Assembly: GCF_021504595.1 (NCBI RefSeq)
Contig: NZ_JACSGT010000001.1
Span: 2,356,001-2,420,000 of the forward strand
DNA length: 64,000 nt
Reading direction: 5' to 3'
Origin: Chryseobacterium indicum
Lineage (GTDB): Bacteria; Bacteroidota; Bacteroidia; Flavobacteriales; Weeksellaceae
In this document: positions 2,042-52,958 of the stretch, piece after piece
Layout: every line of letters begins with the position of its first letter
How positions within the stretch are numbered: position 1 is the first letter of the stretch
Translations under genes and position numbers: made by a program
The notes under the pieces: generated by a model
The model's input: only the letters and a program-made list of their open reading frames with translations
The model's database searches: none
Told to the model about the DNA's origin: nothing

Positions 2042-2941
2042 CTATGCGCGTTTCACTAAGGAAAACAATGCTTTCCCGATCGTGAAAACAGCCACGGCAA
2101 GCAATCCTCCTGTAAGTCCAAGAATCACTTCTTTAAGAACCATAAGTATTTTATCTGAAGACCAGGATGGTAAAATATGGTGAAAATACTCTATTCGGTG
2201 AGCAAAAATTCCTCCGGCAACCATAATCAGGGCAATCGTTCCGATTACTCCTAAAGCTTTTATAACTATTGGAAGTGCTTTTACAAGAAGATGTCCCAGT
2301 TTTCCGATAATTCCTTTGTCATTACTTTTTCTGATCAGTTTAAATCCTGCATCATCCATTCTTACAATTAAAGCTACAATTCCGTAAACTCCTACTGTTG
2401 CAATAAAAGCCACCAATGAGGTTACCAGAATCTGGGTAATAAAAGGATGACTTTCCTCCAAAACCGTTCCTAAAGCAATAATTACAATTTCAATAGACAG
2501 AATAAAATCCGTTGTAATTGCTGATTTAATCTTTGCCTTTTCGGTTTCTTCAGAATTTAGATCTTCTTCTTCCGCCTCTTCTACGACTTCATGACCTTTT
2601 TTATCCCTGTGAAACAGAAATTCTATAATCTTTTCTACCCCTTCAAAAGCAAGATACAGACCTCCCAAAATCAAAACATAATTAATGGCAGGCGGATACA
2701 GCCAGTTTAACAGAAAAACAATCGGAAGAATAATAAGTTTGTTGATGAAAGATCCTTTTGTGATCGCCCAAAGTACCGGAAGCTCTCGTGAAGAAAGAAA
2801 GCCAGTCGCTTTTTCAGCATTTACAGCAAGATCATCTCCTAAGATTCCAGCCGTTTTCTGAGTTGCTATTTTACTTGTAACCGCTACATCATCCATTAAC
2901 GCAGCAATATCATCCAAGATCGCAAAAAAACCAGATGCCAT
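2042..2941 (-). CDS. DUF808 (YedI-like) inner-membrane protein
   Basis: A 299-residue polytopic membrane protein of the DUF808/YedI family. It starts with the family's typical MASGFFAILDDIAALMDDVA, followed by the soluble N-terminal segment. Hydrophobic segments then occur at about residues 70-100, 150-195 and 225-290. A charged, Glu-rich loop at about 115-135 separates the first membrane segments. The biochemical role of the family is not established. It stands alone and converges on the upstream hypothetical gene through a shared terminator. Family assignment is fairly sure. Confidence 0.88.
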   Translation of the reverse strand: MASGFFAILDDIAALMDDVAVTSKIATQKTAGILGDDLAVNAEKATGFLSSRELPVLWAITKGSFINKLIILPIVFLLNWLYPPAINYVLILGGLYLAFEGVEKIIEFLFHRDKKGHEVVEEAEEEDLNSEETEKAKIKSAITTDFILSIEIVIIALGTVLEESHPFITQILVTSLVAFIATVGVYGIVALIVRMDDAGFKLIRKSNDKGIIGKLGHLLVKALPIVIKALGVIGTIALIMVAGGIFAHRIEYFHHILPSWSSDKILMVLKEVILGLTGGLLAVAVFTIGKALFSLVKRA

Positions 2942-3183
2942 AAAATTTTAATGTTTTTTTAATGTTTGTTAAAGGGCAAAAATAATTATTTAATTCGGTT
3001 TTTCTTATGACTGACCGAGCTTTATTTAAACTTATTTATCGCGTAGTTAATCAAGATTAATTATTTTAAATCTGTATATCAAATTGTATTCCTCATAATT
3101 TGTATATTCGTGATAATCATCAAAAATACCATGAAACTTACACGGCGAATTCTAATTTTTGCCTTTAATATGTAAACATTACC

Positions 3184-3621
3184 ATGTTATATTATACTTT
3201 CGATGTAAAAAACAACAGCAGTGAAATTGTTTCAAAAATAAAAATTGAAACAGAAAAGCTGATAGAAGTCTATGATGACGAAATAAAAAGCTATCATAAA
3301 TATTGCAAAAAATTACCGGATGATGCTCCAAGACATATTGAATATCAAAATATCAACTGTTTACGGAAATTACTTTCGGAAGCAAAAACAGATATTGATT
3401 TTGCAGAAAAGAATGATTATGTACAATCTTTTTCAATTAAAATAATGATTCGTAAAGATTTTCATTCAATATTTTGTAAAAAATGCAGTCAGGAATATTC
3501 TCCTGAAGAAATTATTTACGAAACATGGTCTCAGGGAGAAAGTTTATTTGCTTCGGGAGGAAAAACTTTATCGTGTAAAAACAACCATTTTCTTTTCGGG
3601 TATATGGAATGGAACTCATAA
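3184..3621 (+). CDS. Hypothetical protein with a Cys/His zinc-ribbon-like C-terminus
   Basis: A 145-residue soluble protein. The N-terminal two thirds is charged and helical. Near the C-terminus lie CKKC (about residue 99) and, after about 30 residues, CKNNH; together they could bind one metal ion, which is an inference from spacing. No homologous family is recognised. It sits alone between a divergent DUF808 gene and a lipoprotein esterase gene, with only 62 bp to the latter. Confidence 0.65.
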   Translation: MLYYTFDVKNNSSEIVSKIKIETEKLIEVYDDEIKSYHKYCKKLPDDAPRHIEYQNINCLRKLLSEAKTDIDFAEKNDYVQSFSIKIMIRKDFHSIFCKKCSQEYSPEEIIYETWSQGESLFASGGKTLSCKNNHFLFGYMEWNS

Positions 3622-3683
3622 CAAAAAATAAAAATTTCTGGTATTATTAATTTTTAAATAGTAATTTTCTTTACTTTTATTCT

Positions 3684-4556
3684 ATGAAAAAGCTGATTCT
3701 TCGTTACCATTTCTTTGTTTTAGGGTTAATTGGCTTTATTTTGAGTTCATGCAATACGAGAAAATTTAAAGTCTGGGTGGGAACAAATAACGAACAGAAA
3801 ATTTACAATCTGAAGTACGGGGAACATAAAAGGCAGAAAGCAGACATCTTTCTTCCTTCGAATTATCCTGAAAATTCTCCCGTTGTTTTATTAATTCATG
3901 GCGGAGCATGGACTCTGGGCAAAAAAGAACACATGATCCAAATTCAGAAAATGCTCTTTAAAAATAATATTCCGACCATTAATATGAATTACCGGCTGGT
4001 TTCAAAGTCAAAAAAAATCACGTACCGCGAACAGCTTGAAGACATAAATTTAGTGATTGCCAAATTCAATGAACTGGCGCAGAGAGCAGAACTTCAGCCT
4101 AACAATTATATTCTTCTGGGAGAAAGTGCGGGAGGTCATCTTGCTTTACTCTACGGTTATCAGAATCCTGATAAAGTAAAAAAGATCATTTCCTTAAGCG
4201 GACCGACAGATTTTTATTCTCCGGAATACCTGAATTCATTTTACTCCAAATATTCTTCACCGACTATCCAAAAAGTGGTGGGAACAAAATTCACGCGTGG
4301 AAACTTGTCTGAAGAATTTAAAAAAGCCAGTCCGATTGCCCATATTTCGAATGTTCCTACCCTCCATTTTCAGGGTAATCAGGATTTTTTAGTCAGTCCG
4401 AAACAGGGAATTGCCTTGGATTCTGCTTTAACGGCACAAAATGTCCCGCATAAATTCATTTACATGAAAAATACAGGTCATGTTCCGCGATTTTTTAACA
4501 GAAAGAAAAGAGACAGCATTATTTATCCTAATATTCTGGAGTGGATTAAAAATTAA
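3684..4556 (+). CDS. Lipoprotein alpha/beta hydrolase (esterase/lipase, BD-FAE-like)
   Basis: A 290-residue hydrolase with a lipoprotein signal ending in SSC at Cys22, so it is probably anchored in a membrane facing the periplasm or the surface. The fold markers are in order: HGGAWTLG oxyanion-hole motif (about residue 72), GESAGGH nucleophile elbow with the catalytic Ser (about 155), an Asp in NQDFLV, and a His in TGHVPRF near the end. This matches carboxylesterases of the BD-FAE/Aes type that act on small esters. Substrate unknown. It has its own promoter region and no operon partner. Confidence 0.85.
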   Translation: MKKLILRYHFFVLGLIGFILSSCNTRKFKVWVGTNNEQKIYNLKYGEHKRQKADIFLPSNYPENSPVVLLIHGGAWTLGKKEHMIQIQKMLFKNNIPTINMNYRLVSKSKKITYREQLEDINLVIAKFNELAQRAELQPNNYILLGESAGGHLALLYGYQNPDKVKKIISLSGPTDFYSPEYLNSFYSKYSSPTIQKVVGTKFTRGNLSEEFKKASPIAHISNVPTLHFQGNQDFLVSPKQGIALDSALTAQNVPHKFIYMKNTGHVPRFFNRKKRDSIIYPNILEWIKN

Positions 4557-4637
4557 TCTGGTAAATAACTGAAGAACTGCTTTTGCAGTCTCCCCTTATC
4601 CTTCAAAGAAAAATCTATAATGATTCAGCAAAAAAAT

Positions 4638-4659
4638 AACCCGCTCAGATAAGCGGGTT
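4638..4659. terminator. Hairpin terminator between convergent genes
   Basis: Stem AACCCGCT/AGCGGGTT with a 6-nt loop, A-rich on the left and T/A-rich on the right. It separates the esterase gene from the convergent DedA gene and can serve either. Confidence 0.8.
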
Positions 4660-4681
4660 AAATATATTTTAAAATGAATTC

Positions 4682-5389
4682 TTAGTTGTCTTCTTCATCA
4701 AAATTATGATTTTCATACTTGGAGAAGTCCTGTTTCTTTCCGAATAAAAATTTGATAATAACCGGAACTGTTGTTATCAGAACAATCACAATAATAATCA
4801 GTTCTAATTTTTTCTTAAGATCAATTCCGAACTGATCGATAAATAATTTATCCAGATAATGTCCCGCAAAAATCAATAAAAACGACCAGAGAACCGCCCC
4901 GATAATATTATCTCTTAAGAACGCCTTTTTATCCATCTTTACGATCCCTGCCACAATCGGAGTAAATGTTCTTACTACAGGTAAAAATCTTGCCATTATA
5001 ATAGCCAAAGCGCCATTTTTCTCAAAAAAATCGTGCGCCTGATAAAGATATTTCTTTTTAAAAAGCCATGTATCTTCTTTTTTATATAAAGCAGAACCTG
5101 TCTTTCTCCCAAAATAGTAACCTATTTCATTCCCTATAATAGCTGCCAGAGAAACTGATGCCGCTAAGATAAATGTATCGAAAAAATCGCTCCCTGTAGA
5201 GCCAAAAGTCTCTCTGATGATATCAATTGAATAAATCCCCGAAACGAAAAGCAATGAATCGCCCGGTAAAAAAAATCCTACAAAAAGACCTGTTTCGGCG
5301 AAAATGATAAACAGAATGAGCCAAAATCCTCCAAGCTTGATATAAAACTCCGGATTTAATAAATCTTTCCAGCTATTGAAATCTTCCAT
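4682..5389 (-). CDS. DedA family membrane protein (VTT domain)
   Basis: A 235-residue inner-membrane protein of the DedA family, thought to act as lipid-carrier flippases or proton-coupled transporters needed for envelope homeostasis. Visible features are FVGFFLPGDSLLF in the first membrane hairpin, the conserved GNEIGYYFGRKTG segment, and FLPVVRTFTPIVAG, which carries the conserved Arg. The C-terminal cytosolic tail is acidic. It is a single gene with no linked partner that would suggest a substrate. Confidence 0.92.
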   Translation of the reverse strand: MEDFNSWKDLLNPEFYIKLGGFWLILFIIFAETGLFVGFFLPGDSLLFVSGIYSIDIIRETFGSTGSDFFDTFILAASVSLAAIIGNEIGYYFGRKTGSALYKKEDTWLFKKKYLYQAHDFFEKNGALAIIMARFLPVVRTFTPIVAGIVKMDKKAFLRDNIIGAVLWSFLLIFAGHYLDKLFIDQFGIDLKKKLELIIIVIVLITTVPVIIKFLFGKKQDFSKYENHNFDEEDN

Positions 5390-5473
5390 ACATTTTGATA
5401 AGTAACAAAAATAGGATTAATAAACGTCAATCGGAAATTAATTATAAGATTTTAACGAAATTTAAACATCGTC

Positions 5474-6586
5474 CTACAATTCCATATCATCATCTGAAAC
5501 CGCCGTTCCATCCGCCATCAGGAAAGCTTTCAGGAACGGAGTGATGTTTCCGTTCATTACAGAATCCACATCCGAAGTTTCGAATCCGGAACGCACATCT
5601 TTTACCAGTTTATAAGGATGCATAACGTAGTTTCGGATCTGGCTTCCCCACTCGATCTTCATTTTATTGGCTTCGATCTCGTTACGGGCTTTCATACGCT
5701 CTTCCAATTCCATTTCGTATAGTCTGGAACGAAGCAACTGCATTGCCTTTTCCTTATTCTGAAGCTGGGAACGCGACTCTGAGTTTTCAATAATGATTCC
5801 TGTAGGCGCGTGACGAAGACGAACCGCCGTTTCTACCTTGTTTACGTTCTGACCTCCCGCTCCGGAAGATCTCATGGTTTCAAATGAAATATCGGCAGGA
5901 TTGATGTTGATTTCAATCGTATCATCCACCAAAGGATACACATACACCGAAACGAAACTCGTATGACGCTTCGCATTGGAATCGAAAGGCGAAATTCTTA
6001 CCAGACGGTGAACTCCGTTTTCTCCTCTTAAATAGCCGAATGCAAACTCTCCTTCAATTTCCAGTGTTACGGTTTTTACTCCGGCAACATCCCCTTCCTG
6101 AAAGTTCAGTTCACGGATTTTATACCCTTGTTTTTCCGCCCACATGGTATACATTCTCATCAGCATTGAAGCCCAGTCGCAGCTTTCTGTTCCTCCTGCT
6201 CCTGCAGTAATTTGTAAAACCGCAGAAAGTTCATCCCCTTCATTGGAAAGCATATTCTTGAATTCAAGATCTTCGATTTTTTCTACCAGTTGAGGAAAGG
6301 TTTCGTCCAGTTCTTTCTCAGAATCCGGATCTTCTTTGGCAAATTCTGCCAAAACCTGTAAATCTTCAAACTGGGTATTGATTTCGTCATACGCTTCCAC
6401 CCACTTTTTTTTGGAACGAAGTTGCTTCAGAAATCCTTCAGCTTCTTTAGGATTGTCCCAAAACTCAGGAGCTGCTGTTTTTTCATCATCATTAGAAATT
6501 TCTATCTTCTTTTTATCGATCTGAAGATATTTATGTAAATCATCAATTCTTGACTGAATTTCTTTTATCTGGTCGCTGTTAATCAC
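5474..6586 (-). CDS. prfB: Peptide chain release factor 2
   Basis: RF2 recognises UGA and UAA stop codons and hydrolyses peptidyl-tRNA. The SPF recognition tripeptide is visible in [10 protein letters not shown] and the catalytic GGQ in [11 protein letters not shown]. The frame is continuous from a GTG start; the segment equivalent to the E. coli frameshift site reads CTT CAG ATC (KYLQID) with no in-frame TGA. The autoregulatory +1 frameshift is therefore absent. Total length of 370 residues is normal for RF2. The gene ends with TAG, an RF1 codon. A TATTTTTG element lies about 17 bp before the start codon on the coding strand. Confidence 0.97.
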
Positions 6587-6602
6587 GATTGTTTATTTTT
6601 TG

Positions 6603-6610
6603 CAAAAATA
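6603..6610 (-). promoter_or_regulatory. Putative -7 element for prfB
   Basis: On the minus strand this reads TATTTTTG, matching the Bacteroidota -7 consensus TAnnTTTG. It would place transcription start about a dozen bases before the GTG start of prfB. No clear -33 TTTG was identified. Confidence 0.5.
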
Positions 6611-6724
6611 CGGATAAAATTATGAGTGCAAATTTTTGTCCCGCAGATTTCGCGAATTAGTACAGATTTCTGCTGAAATACACCTTCAGTTTATATGTTG
6701 ATATTCTTAGTTAATTCAAAATTT

Positions 6725-6852
6725 AAACACATCAGTCACCTGAGATTTTAAATCTTTCGTATCGTAGAGAAGAACACATTAGTTTCTGAAAATCTTTGAT
6801 TTTCTTCTTAATTGATTTTTTTACTTTAAAGTAATAAAACTAATGTGACTGA
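6725..6852. repeat. CACATnAGTCAC-type intergenic repeat, copy 1
   Basis: An element bounded by inverted ends (AAACACATCAGTCAC on the left, ATGTGACTGA on the right). Its inside segment AAGAACACATTAGTTTCTGA, continuing AAATCTTTGATTTTC, is shared almost exactly with the second copy on the other side of the FAD oxidoreductase gene. It ends two bases before that gene's stop codon. It looks like a MITE-like or REP-like non-coding element. Confidence 0.75.
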
Positions 6853-6854
6853 AA

Positions 6855-7961
6855 TTAGATCATTTCCGCTACAATCTCTCCGATTTTCGGAGCCAGCGCA
6901 ACGCCCATTCCCGAAAGGCGGACTGCACAAAACTGTCTTTCTGAAAGCTGTTTTACAATCGGAGTTTTTTCGGTTCCCATTGCCATAATTCCTGACCAGC
7001 GATGAGCGATTTCAAAATGCTGATCTGGTAATATCACTTCTTTTAAAAAGTTTTCTAAATGACTTTGTAAGAATTCTGTGGTTTCAAAAGATGTGGTTTC
7101 TTCTGTTTTAAAATCCTGATTTCTTCCGCCTCCGAGTAAAATCCGGTTTCCGAGATTTCTGAAATAATAAAAACCTTCATCATAATGGAATGTTCCTTTT
7201 AATTTCAGATGTTCAATCGGTTCAGTTAAAATAATCTGTCCTCGAGCCGGAATAATTTCTTCCTTGTCTAAAAATCTTGAAGCAAAAGCATTCGTACAGT
7301 GAATTAACTGATGTGCCTTAACAGAAAGATTTTTTGAAAGATGAACTTCAATTTCATCTGAATGTTCCGTGATATTTTCAACTTCGGTTCCGAAGAGAAA
7401 TTCAATTTTTAATTCATGACATTTTTCCAATAACTTCTGAAGCAGTTTCCCGGAATGCAAACTTCCTTCACACGGATTTTCAATCAGATATTGAGATTTT
7501 CCCAAACCGAATTCCTGAATTTTATGCTGGCTTAAAAAATAGGTTTCTTCAACATTGGTAATGGATTTCAGCTTTTGATTCACTTCATCCAACTTTTGTA
7601 AAGGCTCATCATGGTTAAGAATTTCAAAACCGCCATTCAGATCAAAATCTATTTCCGAATTTTTAAAATAATGCTGAATTTTCTGCAAACCGTCAAACCT
7701 CATCTTTACAAGGTCTAGTGTTTTTTTCCAGCCCATTTTTTCAGAATCGACAATCACTTCCGTTAGACTTCCGAAGCAGGCAAATCCTGCATTTCTCGTG
7801 GAAGCGCCCATCGGAACAGCATTTCGCTCAATGATCAAAACAGATTTTTCGGGATATTTTTCCTTAATGGAAATTGCGGTCCAAAGTCCCGTAAAACCGG
7901 CTCCGATAGTAATAACTTCGCGTTTTTTGTAAAAAGTTTCAAGTTCCCAGATGCTGTTCAT
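6855..7961 (-). CDS. FAD-dependent amino-group oxidoreductase (DAO family)
   Basis: A 368-residue flavoprotein of the D-amino-acid oxidase / glycine oxidase / gamma-glutamylputrescine oxidase superfamily. The N-terminal dinucleotide-binding motif is IGAGFTGLWTAISI with a following IIERN (adenosine ribose contact). MGASTRNAGFACFG is the segment where related enzymes hold the flavin. The C-terminal GMGVALAPKIGE closes the FAD domain. No secretion signal, so cytosolic. The substrate (an amino acid or amine) cannot be told. It is bracketed by two copies of one repeat element, in direct orientation, with no operon partner. Confidence 0.85.
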   Translation of the reverse strand: MNSIWELETFYKKREVITIGAGFTGLWTAISIKEKYPEKSVLIIERNAVPMGASTRNAGFACFGSLTEVIVDSEKMGWKKTLDLVKMRFDGLQKIQHYFKNSEIDFDLNGGFEILNHDEPLQKLDEVNQKLKSITNVEETYFLSQHKIQEFGLGKSQYLIENPCEGSLHSGKLLQKLLEKCHELKIEFLFGTEVENITEHSDEIEVHLSKNLSVKAHQLIHCTNAFASRFLDKEEIIPARGQIILTEPIEHLKLKGTFHYDEGFYYFRNLGNRILLGGGRNQDFKTEETTSFETTEFLQSHLENFLKEVILPDQHFEIAHRWSGIMAMGTEKTPIVKQLSERQFCAVRLSGMGVALAPKIGEIVAEMI

Positions 7962-48774: not shown

Positions 48775-49247
48775 CAATTTTTTTTACTTGATTGCTTACT
48801 AAATTATGATAATATTCTACGTTATGCAAATTTGCGATTTTTAAGGGAGATTTTGTGTTTTTTAAATGGATAAAAACAGCAAAAGTTTTGATGTTTCTGT
48901 TTTGAGCAATAGATAAGATGATCATTAAATTAACCTGATTTCGGGATAAGTCTTCTTAAAAGCAAGGTTAAACAAAGAGATTCAATTATCAGGAATACAG
49001 CTTTTAAGATATACAAAGGCGTAAAATTGATCAAAGTAATACCATTTTTGTTTTTTTTAAATAAACGAAGTGCCTTTGTTTAGCTTACCAACTTTCAATA
49101 AGTAAAAAAATCTTTTGTTTTTCTTTGCGATCAACTAATATAATGCTATAAATCAATTTTTTAAATTTATTTCTTATCCCGAACTGAGAATAAATTAAAA
49201 AAACGGACTTTCGCCCGTTTTCTGTATTATCTTGTGTTAGAAGAATT
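48775..49247. other. 473-bp gene-free gap with nested inverted repeats
   Basis: No credible gene. It contains TTCGGGATAAG (48940-48950) and its perfect reverse complement (49173-49183), and inside them ACAAAGGC (49013-49020) with GCCTTTGT (49072-49079). TTAACC/GGTTAA flank the left arm. The nested order suggests a decayed mobile or MITE-like element. The right end holds the terminator of the grasp operon. Confidence 0.5.
49200..49221 (-). terminator. Terminator of the graspetide operon
   Basis: Stem AAAACGG/CCGTTTT with an 8-nt loop; on the minus strand it is followed by a T-run. It comes 27 bp after the stop of the last ATP-grasp gene. Confidence 0.8.
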
Positions 49248-50252
49248 TTAGACCAAAACCATATTGTTTCTTCTTGGAGCTTTATCGCATAAGATATCGG
49301 CAATACTTTTGGAAATAAGGTTTCCTTCGGTGAGATTATCCAGCCAGAAGAATTCTCCGGCACAGTTGATCTCAATGAAATAATATTTATCTTCGGGCGA
49401 AACGATCATATCTATCGCTCCGTAATCGATATTGTAAACGTCTAACAGTTCCAGCAATTTTGCTTCAATGTCTGTCGGAAGTTCCGCAGGAATCCATTTA
49501 TCGATAAGATTTACCCCGTCTTTTCGCCAGTCTATTTTTGCGGCTTCCGACTGTTGGGAATCGATTTCAAAAGCGTAAACTTCTCTTCCTACAATGGTAA
49601 TGCGGAGCTCTTTTTTCTTTTCAATTTTTTTCTGAAACTGCATCGGACAGTATAAAAGCGTATCCAGTTCTTCCAGTTTATCTTCCTTTACCACATTAGT
49701 GAATACAACACTTTCAACACCGTCTTCATAAATAGCAAATCCGGTCTGCATTTTGGCAACTACATTTTTATGTTTTACAATGAACTGTTTCGCTTCTTCC
49801 GGATTGTTCGTAAGGCAGGATTCCGGAATTTTAAGTCCAATTTTATGAGCTATTTTCAATTGTTCTTCCTTGCTGTCTACTCTTCTGTAAACACTTGGTT
49901 TCCCTAATGCATAAACATCAATAGACTCTAAAAACCCAAATAGTGTCGTTCTGATCTCTCCCATCGCAGCACCGTAAAATTTAGAATCCAGCTCTTCTTT
50001 CAGACCAGATCCAATATTGTAGGCTCTTCTGTACCAGACTGCGGAAATATCGTCCAAACGATGTTTTTTTTCATGAGTTTCTAAAATACTGATCCATTTT
50101 CCGTCTTCAAAACGGGTAGATAATTTATTTTGCAAAGGGTATAAATCGACATCGAAACGGATGACTTCACAATGGTTTTCAGCAATATATTCTGTTACTT
50201 TTTCTATGGAAAAATTATCTCCTGTATGGGTAATTATTAAAATTTTATTCAT
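49248..50252 (-). CDS. ATP-grasp ribosomal peptide maturase, MvdD-like
   Basis: A 334-residue ATP-grasp ligase of the graspetide class that closes side-chain lactone or lactam rings in a precursor peptide. It starts ILIITHTGDNFSIEKVTEYI; SAVWYRRAYNIGSGLKEELD and SVYRRVDSKEEQLKIAHKIGLKIPESCLTNN are typical maturase segments. The Mg-ATP site is seen in DMIVSPEDKYYFIEINCAGEF. It overlaps the preceding ligase gene by eight bases. By analogy with microviridin, one ligase makes esters and one makes the amide; assigning this one to the MvdD (ester) side is tentative. Confidence 0.88.
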   Translation of the reverse strand: MNKILIITHTGDNFSIEKVTEYIAENHCEVIRFDVDLYPLQNKLSTRFEDGKWISILETHEKKHRLDDISAVWYRRAYNIGSGLKEELDSKFYGAAMGEIRTTLFGFLESIDVYALGKPSVYRRVDSKEEQLKIAHKIGLKIPESCLTNNPEEAKQFIVKHKNVVAKMQTGFAIYEDGVESVVFTNVVKEDKLEELDTLLYCPMQFQKKIEKKKELRITIVGREVYAFEIDSQQSEAAKIDWRKDGVNLIDKWIPAELPTDIEAKLLELLDVYNIDYGAIDMIVSPEDKYYFIEINCAGEFFWLDNLTEGNLISKSIADILCDKAPRRNNMVLV

Positions 50253-51201
50253 TGGTTTTCATTCTTTTTATAAGGTTATCGGCAATTCTTTCCGCAATTG
50301 GGAAATTGAGTTCTTTCTGAAGCATTCCCCATTCTCCCTGCGGATTTACTTCCAGGAAATAGTAGTTTCCGTCTTTGCTTTTTATCATATCGATTGCTCC
50401 GATGTACAGTCCCATTTCTTTCATCATTGAGGTAAGACCGGTTTTAATACGTTCCGGTAAATGATATTCTGACCAAAAATAATTCTCATTGGCTATTCTC
50501 CAGTCGGTATTTTCGCTGTTATTGATTTTTCCGGTAAAAAATTCTCTGTCAAGATAAAGTATTCTAAGTTCATATTCTTTTTCAATGTAGGGTTGAAAAA
50601 TCATGGGACAGTATTCTATATCGTCTATATTTTCGAGAGAATTTTCATCGATAATATTGGTAGAGAGGAAATTTTCTGCGTTCATTGATTTGGAAAGCGC
50701 ACCATGAAGTTTTGCCACCATTTTTCCGTTGCATTTCTTATGGAAAAACTCGGTTATTTGTTCTGAATCGTTTGAAAAAATAGTTTCGGGAATAGTAAGG
50801 TTGTTTTTTTTGGCAATCTTTAGTTGATACATTTTATTACCGTCAATCTTATTTTCATTCTCAAACGGATTGATCCACGGAATGTCTTCCAGTAAAGTGA
50901 AAAGATTGTTTCTGAGGGCAGCATATTCTTTCAGGAAAATTTTTGTGTAGCTTTCATCCAGTTCTTCAGGAACAGTGATGCCCCACGATTTTCTGTGCCA
51001 TACTGCTTTAATTTCGTTTGAATTTACGGTATTGCCGGATTCATCGGTTAATTCAAAACAGCTTTCGTTGATGCTGATTTTCTGGTAATGACTGATTTTA
51101 TCTGAATTCAGTCGGAAACATGGAATATTTTTAGATTTTAAATATTCAAAAAAGATATTAATATTGTAAAAGTCCTGAGAATGCGTTATACAAAGAATCA
51201 T
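50245..51201 (-). CDS. ATP-grasp ribosomal peptide maturase, MvdC-like
   Basis: A 318-residue paralogous ATP-grasp ligase and the first enzyme gene after the precursor genes. It begins ILCITHSQDFYNINIFFEYL, with AVWHRKSWGITVPEEL and YQLKIAKKNNLTIPETIFSN. The C-terminal catalytic part reads GAIDMIKSKDGNYYFLEVNPQGEWGML, where Glu and Asn bind Mg-ATP. Its pairing with a second maturase and with PFFASFL precursors defines a microviridin-like system. Which linkage it makes is unproven. A hairpin with a T-tract precedes it. Confidence 0.88.
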   Translation of the reverse strand: MILCITHSQDFYNINIFFEYLKSKNIPCFRLNSDKISHYQKISINESCFELTDESGNTVNSNEIKAVWHRKSWGITVPEELDESYTKIFLKEYAALRNNLFTLLEDIPWINPFENENKIDGNKMYQLKIAKKNNLTIPETIFSNDSEQITEFFHKKCNGKMVAKLHGALSKSMNAENFLSTNIIDENSLENIDDIEYCPMIFQPYIEKEYELRILYLDREFFTGKINNSENTDWRIANENYFWSEYHLPERIKTGLTSMMKEMGLYIGAIDMIKSKDGNYYFLEVNPQGEWGMLQKELNFPIAERIADNLIKRMKTNE

Positions 51202-51219
51202 CTGCTGTTTTTTATTAAA

Positions 51220-51248
51220 AAAGGAAACTTAGAGTGTAAGTTTCCTTT
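51220..51248 (-). terminator. Intercistronic terminator/attenuator between precursor and ligase genes
   Basis: Perfect 12-bp stem AAAGGAAACTTA/TAAGTTTCCTTT, 5-nt loop; on the minus strand it is followed by TTTTTTTAAT. It lies inside the operon, after the last precursor gene and 18 bp before the first ligase gene. It would lower enzyme mRNA relative to precursor mRNA. Confidence 0.85.
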
Positions 51249-51286
51249 AATATGATTTTTTAATGCGATCTGAAAATAAAAATCCA

Positions 51287-51505
51287 TTAAACAGATGGAG
51301 AATCATCATCTCCGTCGGAAGGATATTTCATTGTTTGCGCCATATCATAGATTGGCTTTGTAACTGTATCTACAGCGGGTTTTGTAATGCTGTCCTGTGA
51401 TGCAATAGTTACATCTCCACCTCCTTTAATTTTTTCAGGATCCTGTAATTGTTTCTCTAAAAATGAAGCGAAGAAAGGCTTCTTTTTTGAATCTTTGTTT
51501 TTCAT
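51287..51505 (-). CDS. Graspetide precursor peptide 3 (microviridin-like)
   Basis: A 72-residue precursor. Leader: basic start, then KKPFFASFLEKQL, the maturase recognition helix known as PFFARFL in microviridins, and a Gly-Gly-Gly end (KIKGGG). Core: repeats of eight residues DSITKPAV and DTVTKPIY, then TMKYPSDGDDDSPSV. TxKYPSD followed by acidic residues is the microviridin-type macrocyclisation motif (Thr, Ser and Lys joined to Asp/Glu). The third gene of three in the cluster; the core tail differs from the other two (GDDD instead of SDEGG). Confidence 0.9.
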   Translation of the reverse strand: MKNKDSKKKPFFASFLEKQLQDPEKIKGGGDVTIASQDSITKPAVDTVTKPIYDMAQTMKYPSDGDDDSPSV

Positions 51506-51532
51506 AGTTGTTTATTTTGGGTATTTTTATGG

Positions 51533-51805
51533 CTATTCAATTCCCGGAGGATTACCCGGATTAAATCCTCCCTCGTCACTGTCTGAAGGATATTTCAGTG
51601 TGACAGGAGTATCTGTAATCGGTGTTGTGGTTACTGGTCCGTCCAGCGTTTTTAAAGTAAAAACAGAATCTTTTGCGGGTAACGTAACAGAATCATCCAT
51701 TAATCCTGTTATTATTCCGCCACCGCCCTGAACTTCTTCAGGATTCTGAATCTGCTTCTCTAAAAACGAAGCAAAAAACGGTTTTTTCTTATCGCTTCTT
51801 TTCAT
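51533..51805 (-). CDS. Graspetide precursor peptide 2 (microviridin-like)
   Basis: The longest precursor, 90 residues. Leader KKKPFFASFLEKQIQNPEEV ends in GGGG. The core includes DDSVTLPAK, DSVFTLKTLD and DTPVTLKYPSDSDEGG, with a C-terminal follower FNPGNPPGIE. TLKYPSD is the ring-forming motif. It differs from its neighbours by longer, Thr-rich spacing between units and the Pro-rich tail. Placed between precursors 1 and 3, 27-38 bp from each. Confidence 0.9.
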   Translation of the reverse strand: MKRSDKKKPFFASFLEKQIQNPEEVQGGGGIITGLMDDSVTLPAKDSVFTLKTLDGPVTTTPITDTPVTLKYPSDSDEGGFNPGNPPGIE

Positions 51806-51843
51806 AATGTCTGTGATTAGAGTTTATACAGTTAAATCATTTT

Positions 51844-52062
51844 TTAGATTTCTGTACCCCCTTCATCACTGTCTGAAGGATACTTCATGGTAACATTATC
51901 ATTGGAAGGTTTTGTAACGCTGTCCTGAAGTGCTGTTGTAACATTATCTCTCAATGGAGCTGTCGCAACAGTTTCAGATCCTCCTTTGATTTTTTCCGGT
52001 TCTGTGATCTGTCTTTCTAAAAATGATGCAAAAAACGGCTTTTTGTTTTTCTTATTTTCCAT
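51844..52062 (-). CDS. Graspetide precursor peptide 1 (microviridin-like)
   Basis: A 72-residue precursor starting MENKKNKKPFFASFLERQ; a longer in-frame ATG upstream is rejected because it breaks the size and leader pattern shared with the others. The leader ends KIKGG. The core shows three units with eight-residue spacing, DNVTTALQ, DSVTKPSN and DNVTMKYP, the last opening the TMKYPSDSDE ring motif, and ends GGTEI. It is the promoter-proximal gene of the cluster. Export and leader removal genes are not seen nearby. Confidence 0.9.
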   Translation of the reverse strand: MENKKNKKPFFASFLERQITEPEKIKGGSETVATAPLRDNVTTALQDSVTKPSNDNVTMKYPSDSDEGGTEI

Positions 52063-52178
52063 GATATTAATATTTAGTGATTTAGCTTCGACTAAAATAT
52101 TAAAAAATATCACACAAAGTAGAATAAATTTATATTTTAAGAAAATTTTAACAAATAACCCTCAATAAACGCATTATG

Positions 52179-52958
52179 TTACACAATATTCAAAAATTCT
52201 TTTACAATTTTAGCAAAATCTACAGGATTTTCAGCCTGAACCCAATGTCCTGCATTTTTAACTGTTGAAAACTGAGCTTTGGGAAACTGCTGTTTAATAG
52301 CAAACTCATCCTGAGGAAGAATATAATTGGATTTTTCGCCTGCAATAAACAACGTCTCTCCTTCGAAAACACCGAATTTTATCGCATTGGAAACAAACTG
52401 ATTGTATTTTTCAGAAAGAGTTTTCAGGTTAAATCTCCAGTTCAGTTTTTTATTATCATCCCAATACAGATTTTTTGTAAGGAATTGTATTGTAGATCTT
52501 TCAGGAATATACTGGCTTAAAACAGTTTCCACATCATTTCTGGAATTTACCGTATTAAAATCCACAGTTTCCAAAGCTTTGATAATCCCCTGATGATGCG
52601 GAGGATATGCTTTCGGAGAAATATCCACAACAATAAGTTTTTCCACTTTTTCAGGATATTTAATAGCAAACTGCATTACTGCTTTTCCACCTAAAGAATG
52701 TCCCAGAATATGAGCTTTCTGTATCCCGTAATGCTCCATATACCGAAGAATATCATCCGCTAAATCGTCGTGAGACATCTCAGCCGAATGAAAACTTCTT
52801 CCGTGGTTGCGGAGATCAATAAGGTACGTCGGCAAAAACTCTCCAAAATCTTTCCCGAAAGTTCCCCAGTTATCGAGCATTCCAAATAAACCGTGAAATA
52901 CCAAAAGCGGTGTAGACGAAAGATTTTCGCCAAATATTTTTGAATTTAAAATTTCCAT
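52179..52958 (-). CDS. Alpha/beta hydrolase (YbfF-like esterase)
   Basis: A 259-residue cytosolic alpha/beta hydrolase. HGLFGMLDNWG carries the oxyanion loop, DLRNHGRSFHS follows, GHSLGGKAVM is the nucleophile elbow with Ser, and NAGHWVQAENP provides the His. The pattern matches YbfF-type acyl-CoA or short ester hydrolases. It sits upstream of the graspetide precursors on the same strand with a 116-bp gap, so read-through is possible but a functional link is not shown. Confidence 0.88.
   Translation of the reverse strand: MEILNSKIFGENLSSTPLLVFHGLFGMLDNWGTFGKDFGEFLPTYLIDLRNHGRSFHSAEMSHDDLADDILRYMEHYGIQKAHILGHSLGGKAVMQFAIKYPEKVEKLIVVDISPKAYPPHHQGIIKALETVDFNTVNSRNDVETVLSQYIPERSTIQFLTKNLYWDDNKKLNWRFNLKTLSEKYNQFVSNAIKFGVFEGETLFIAGEKSNYILPQDEFAIKQQFPKAQFSTVKNAGHWVQAENPVDFAKIVKEFLNIV

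Follow-up and report, generated by a model that had tools for sequence, protein, structure and literature searches.

A chryseoviridin-type graspetide cluster in Chryseobacterium indicum with new core sequences and a conserved hairpin between precursor and ligase genes

What do five adjoining genes on the minus strand of a Chryseobacterium indicum contig make, and how are they run as a unit? The window, a stretch of 64,000 nucleotides (contig NZ_JACSGT010000001.1, positions 2,356,001 to 2,420,000), carries these genes at 49248-52062, all of them open and full length. The locus is almost certainly a chryseoviridin-type (cdn) graspetide operon that yields ring peptides. Three precursor genes are followed by two ATP-grasp ligase genes, in the order cdnA genes-cdnB-cdnC, between an alpha/beta hydrolase gene and an epimerase gene whose families were checked. 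Intact and well supported, the cluster is an unremarkable representative of the chryseoviridin family whose core sequences are new; its one unexpected feature is a strongly conserved, presumably regulatory hairpin between the precursor and ligase genes. Gene content and order, homology, motif periodicity, conservation of the hairpin and the presence of C39 genes are established here.

The three precursors, A1 (72 aa, 51844-52062), A2 (90 aa, 51533-51805) and A3 (72 aa, 51287-51505), each combine a leader bearing KKPFFASFL with a Gly-Gly junction and, ahead of acidic residues, the motif T[ML]KYPSD. PFFASFL in all three agrees with the PFFxxFL leader of the microviridin/chryseoviridin group. The precursor family NF033738 scores 69, 64 and 74 bits for A1, A2 and A3 (NCBIfam cut-off 26), matches these three proteins only in the whole genome and has no match in any of 14 control genomes. 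A PDB search with A1 returned nothing up to E 10. Downstream lie ligase 1, a CdnB-like (MdnB/MvdC-type) protein of 318 aa (50245-51201), and ligase 2, a CdnC-like (MdnC/MvdD-type) protein of 334 aa (49248-50252); the two genes share 8 bases. Against MvdD, ligase 2 reaches 481 bits (cut-off 475), and its full length aligns with the solved CdnC structure 7mgv at 638 bits. The best family of ligase 1 is MvdC with 405 bits, and its best solved match in the PDB is AMdnB 7m4s with 207 bits. Together they form the paralogous MvdC/MdnB and MvdD/MdnC ligase pair. A terminator-like hairpin on the same strand directly 3' of cdnC (49198-49223, from the terminator scan) is the probable end of the operon. 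The earlier note on this DNA had described three tandem small genes with these motifs and two overlapping ATP-grasp genes behind them, and both parts of that description hold. It gave neither the strand nor the repeated T-x4-D units upstream of KYPSD, nor the hairpin between A3 and ligase 1.

In the microviridins, MdnB forms lactam and MdnC lactone bonds, and the ligases dock on the PFFARFL motif of the leader (PMC7823629). CdnB is accordingly a predicted former of the lactam and possibly of further rings, and CdnC a predicted former of omega-ester rings; as a chryseoviridin-type enzyme it would be expected to make both single-ring and bicyclic esters, and what the sequence shows is the match to 7mgv. 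Both ligases also match TIGR04192, with 129 bits each, which could place them in a grasp-with-spasm or another non-microviridin graspetide system. These scores stay below the cut-off of 230 and far under those for MvdC and MvdD, the space between the flanks holds the precursors and two ligases only, with no SPASM gene, and the three ATP-grasp ligases of this genome that do exceed the TIGR04192 cut-off sit elsewhere. Grasp-with-spasm membership was rejected, and we regard such an origin as close to impossible. Some points weigh against the assignment to the chryseoviridin type and its chemistry. The 405 bits of ligase 1 fall under the curated MvdC cut-off of 425, the linkage assignments for chryseoviridin were taken second-hand, and the lactam acceptor position of A3 is Asp instead of Glu, so that a lactam is less certain there.

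The comparison with relatives used 60 fetched loci (L numbers), of which 59 are titled Chryseobacterium and 1 is titled Weeksellaceae bacterium. One contig, L041, begins within cdnC; precursor and cdnB counts therefore come from 59 of the 60 loci, and the lowest cdnB identity (31%) is attributed to that contig start. The order hydrolase-precursors-B-C-epimerase was found in 52 of the 52 loci that contain all four marker genes. In the same locus of C. gregarium (L038), the species from which chryseoviridin was characterized, CdnC is 84% and CdnB 79% identical to the window's proteins. Chryseoviridin loci have been reported in 47 selected species related to C. gregarium, flanked by an alpha/beta hydrolase and an epimerase and with several precursors per locus, four of them in C. 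gregarium (sections of PMC8939145, 2022). The chryseoviridin-type identity suspected in the earlier note is thus borne out by the enzymes, gene order and flanks. Its suggestion that the multi-precursor design may be new finds no support, since several precursors per locus are already published and we counted 1-4 per locus in the 59 related loci.

A genus survey of 173 Chryseobacterium genomes (G numbers) found cdnC in 142 at E <= 1e-120, one copy (G016) being partial with a stop. No cdnC was found in other genera at E <= 1e-80 in a family sample of 197 genomes from 33 genera. An empty site was present in all 20 genomes tested among the 31 lacking cdnC. There the hydrolase and the epimerase are adjacent, roughly 120-465 bases apart judged by the match coordinates, with one epimerase match (G118) beginning only at residue 53, and in none of the 20 did motif searches or tblastn at E <= 0.01 find a precursor or ligase remnant. 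Because of these empty sites, the five genes are seen to act as a cassette. The hydrolase and the epimerase were considered as biosynthetic partners and rejected; they probably lie outside the pathway, because they adjoin each other without cdn genes in these 20 genomes. A dispensable cassette, missing from 31 of 173 genomes, and the lack of a C39 exporter in the locus might suggest a silent or decaying cluster from which this strain makes no peptide. We find this quite improbable, because each of the five reading frames is open over its whole length, the motifs, ring residues and hairpin are conserved genus-wide, and cdnC is retained in the 142 genomes with the single partial copy noted above.

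As read from the protein sequences, the cores are T-x4-D repeats followed by one TxKYPSDxD[DE] unit. Behind its PFFASFL leader and KGG junction, A1 has three T-x4-D units (TAPLRD, TTALQD, TKPSND) and the terminal unit TMKYPSDSDEGG (TMKYPSDSDE). A2 has four (TGLMDD, TLPAKD, TLKTLD, TTPITD), the terminal unit TLKYPSDSDEGG (TLKYPSDSDE) and then a Pro-rich tail; its nearest relative in C. gregarium is the third of the four precursors there. A3 has TIASQD, TKPAVD and TKPIYD, ends in TMKYPSDGDDD, and is identical in sequence in L001 and L003. The published core motif TxxxxDxxxTxKxPSDxD[DE] (as given in PMC8939145) occurs exactly in A2 and A3, and A1 departs from it only in a D-to-next-T spacing of two residues instead of three.

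We asked how regular these units are in 149 precursors (142 distinct sequences) taken from 59 loci, after setting aside four short hits that matched the leader pattern by chance (L003, L038, L045, L046). Upstream of the terminal unit, a T-to-D offset of 5 occurs in 466 pairs in the distinct precursors, compared with 86 +/- 9 in 200 shuffles; no other offset from 1 to 11 exceeded its largest shuffled value. With T or S counted, there are two units in 10 precursors, three in 72 and four in 67. The Lys of the terminal unit is kept in 145 of the 149 and replaced by Arg in 4. The residue after the first T or S of this unit is Met in 104, Leu in 40, Gln in 3 and Lys in 2. From the unit counts and the known MdnC lactone and MdnB lactam chemistry, the predicted maximum is 6 rings in A1, 7 in A2 and 6 in A3. 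Each ring would cost 18.011 Da. With cleavage behind the first GG, the calculated monoisotopic masses of the A1, A2 and A3 cores are 4653.19, 6358.16 and 4558.13 Da without rings and 4545.12, 6232.09 and 4450.06 Da with all of them; additional Gly residues at this point in A2 and A3 make other cut sites possible. The first precursors of L008, L010, L016 and L029 end in TMRYPSDSD or TLRYPSDSD, with Arg for the lactam Lys; for this reason they should have marinostatin-like, lactam-free ends despite the presence of a CdnB gene. In L030 a single precursor was detected with a 342-base gap ahead of cdnB, where a second precursor may have been frameshifted or lost.

These features suggest how the cluster would work. 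The three precursors would be transcribed first, and the hairpin after A3 would let only part of the transcripts pass into cdnB-cdnC, or would protect the mRNA of the precursors, in either case leaving substrate in excess of enzyme. The two ligases would dock on the leaders at their PFFASFL helix. CdnC would then join Thr and Asp side chains as esters, making one ring per T-x4-D unit and two in the terminal TxKYPSDxD unit, to which CdnB would probably add a Lys-to-acid amide. The leader would then be cut off behind Gly-Gly, in all likelihood by a C39 exporter whose gene lies elsewhere in the genome, to release three multi-ring peptides. Ring chemistry, cleavage, expression and activity are all predictions from sequence. 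The residue after the core Thr is what we take to be the equivalent of microviridin specificity position 5. Specificity in microviridins depends on this position, and subtilisin was inhibited at 0.09 micromolar by a Met variant of microviridin L (PMC7823629); the P1 residue of marinostatin is likewise Met (PMC9623506). By this analogy the products are probably protease inhibitors, and because Met or Leu follows the terminal Thr, the expected targets are subtilisin-, elastase- or chymotrypsin-like serine proteases, with little effect predicted on trypsin.

Which enzyme would remove the leader? A search of the locus found neither an exporter nor a protease, which counts against the model above. 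The window's genome encodes three C39 peptidase domains, all at other places and unlinked to the cdn locus, and the possibility of a linked exporter was therefore rejected. For each of the three, an ATP-grasp ligase above the grasp-with-spasm cut-off is found no more than about 7 kb away. In three further loci of this genome, L072 (around 2421-7114), L073 and L074, ATP-grasp ligases over that cut-off stand together with C39 exporters and small GG-leader peptides. All three loci also encode a putative partner of the exporter that looks HlyD-like by eye, and the N-terminal sequences of these partners are nearly identical. The SPASM partner tested in L072 reached 138 bits, below its cut-off of 175. 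Across the genus, C39 was found in 169 of the 173 genomes, the four without it all lack cdnC, and all 142 cdnC genomes have it (hypergeometric P 0.0009, phylogeny not corrected for). The association is weak all the same. Since C39 is likewise present in 27 of the 31 genomes without cdnC, the co-occurrence is compatible with cutting by an unlinked exporter but weak evidence for it. Table 1 of PMC8939145 ranks C39/ABC transporters first among the associated families, and a passage of that paper states that a C39 peptidase is not typically found in ATP-grasp loci and that the graspetide-cleaving enzyme is unknown. Parts of PMC13039773 report that C39 transporters frequently occur alongside class III precursors, a pairing that this locus does not share, and that one graspetide C39 transporter was shown to cut after GG. 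On balance we lean towards cleavage by an unlinked C39 exporter.

The 85-base gap between A3 and cdnB folds at z = -3.8 and contains a hairpin at 51220-51248. On the operon strand its stem runs into six T, three of which are paired with A. Our own scan, with a relaxed T-run rule and single-base shuffles as control, found a hairpin between the last precursor and cdnB in all 60 loci (59 relatives and the window), with every score at least 14. Precursor-precursor gaps reached this score in 0 of 92 cases, and only 1 of 1200 shuffles reached the score of its own locus. A hairpin between precursor and enzyme genes is a layout known from other operons for ribosomally synthesized and post-translationally modified peptides. 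It is fairly likely that the hairpin is an attenuator that sets the ratio of precursor to enzyme, perhaps as a partial terminator or as an mRNA-protecting element that holds precursor above enzyme. The consensus terminator scan speaks against this, as it lists the 51220-51248 hairpin on the plus strand only and nothing terminator-like on the operon strand. The one-strand listing arises because part of the operon-strand T-run is inside the stem.

The conservation of this hairpin raises the question of whether it acts as RNA at all. Scored against the window in the 59 relatives, the two 9-base arms, with the half-sites GGAAACTTA and TAAGTTTCC, match at 1059 of 1062 positions, whereas fourfold-degenerate cdnC sites match at 2231 of 5200 (43%). 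For the part of the gap that precedes the hairpin, median identity is 58%. Such nearly invariant half-sites would also suit a DNA operator, with a dimeric regulator binding the palindrome, and eight of the twelve pairs never vary and thus give no support for pairing. The lack of a terminator-like site on the operon strand in the consensus scan would fit an operator as well. The loop is hypervariable, with 29 different sequences in the 59 loci, and its length ranges from 3 to 6 in one-base steps, a variation that a rigid dimer site would hardly tolerate. Two outer pairs have changed on both sides, one of them from A-U to G-C in 11 of 48 distinct sequences. The number of paired cells, the cells with double changes and the covariation score were all above 500 of 500 shuffles. 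Other controls were less clear, as two measures, among them the number of pairs with double changes, were reached in 112 of 500 shuffles and a slide by +2 gave an equal covariation score. The T-run after the stem and the position of the same stem in gaps at gene ends in other genera, described below, also disagree with an operator. We consider the operator an unlikely explanation and retain the attenuator.

The exact stem pattern is present as a single copy in the window's genome. Among 171 genus genomes searched, it was found in 129, namely in 127 of the 140 with cdnC and 2 of the 31 without (G135 and G156, both fragmented assemblies), with one copy per genome except in G061, which has two. 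Of the 13 cdnC genomes lacking the exact pattern, G030 (L051) and G037 (L047) have a one-base variant. Among the places listed, the exact copy of G092 lies on a contig other than that of cdnC, at an unrelated place, and both copies of G061 are on contigs other than the one that starts inside cdnC. The nearly invariant stem, the freely changing loop and the mostly single copy per genome could mean that the hairpin is more than a plain terminator, with a specific factor recognizing the stem in a regulated precursor/enzyme switch across the genus. We consider this unlikely. A hairpin special to cdn loci was rejected, since the exact pattern also turns up outside the genus, in 6 of the 147 genomes from other genera in the family sample. 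In five of these six the sites were examined; all are gaps at gene ends, three between convergent and two between tandem gene pairs, in four of them a run of at least six T comes next, and no cdn relatives were found nearby. In two other genera of the family (L101, 4056-4079; L102, 4039-4063) the stem lies within a tandem pair, after a small gene that is YtxH-like by eye, so that here too another gene comes after it. An Rfam search of 48800-52300 gave a single match, a plant snoRNA below the gathering score (E 0.14), which we took as chance.

To a characterized family of ring-forming peptide systems, which may be a source of protease inhibitors, the locus adds three concrete core sequences. 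Testing is straightforward, as the ester-forming enzyme is 84% identical to that of the characterized species. Two genus-wide leads did not turn up in the literature searched, namely the conserved hairpin that splits precursor from enzyme genes and the possible borrowing of C39 from unlinked loci. The words terminator, attenuat- and promoter are absent from the main text of PMC8939145, and with a limited literature search we do not claim that the hairpin is absent from earlier publications.

The closest described system is the cdn cluster of C. gregarium, which shares the leader motif, the GG junction, the T-x4-D units with TxKYPSDxD[DE], the gene order and the flanks. It differs in having four precursors where the window has three and in its core sequences, the best precursor matches being 61-78% identical. 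The closest record is Chryseobacterium sp. ZHDP1 (L001 = G050, listed as the same species), with 96.7% DNA identity over 9 kb. Its A3 is identical, its A1 has an identical core and two leader substitutions, and its A2 has one core substitution. The question in the earlier note, whether the precursors might be those of an already described set, therefore has a divided answer: they differ from the C. gregarium set and are nearly those of strain ZHDP1. With the microviridins (MdnA-B-C) the cluster shares the PFFxxFL leader, the TxKYPSD core and the paralogous lactam/lactone ATP-grasp pair. Unlike them, its cores are multi-unit with a GG junction, as in the class III precursors described in parts of PMC13039773. 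A further difference from microviridin clusters is that its flanks enclose neither a GNAT nor an ABC transporter gene. The terminal unit TMKYPSDSDE resembles the marinostatin core. The likeness extends to the hydrophobic P1 Met (PMC9623506). Marinostatin is described in a passage of PMC7823629 as having no amide bond, whereas the window has Lys in place of Arg, which would allow a lactam, together with a CdnB-type ligase.

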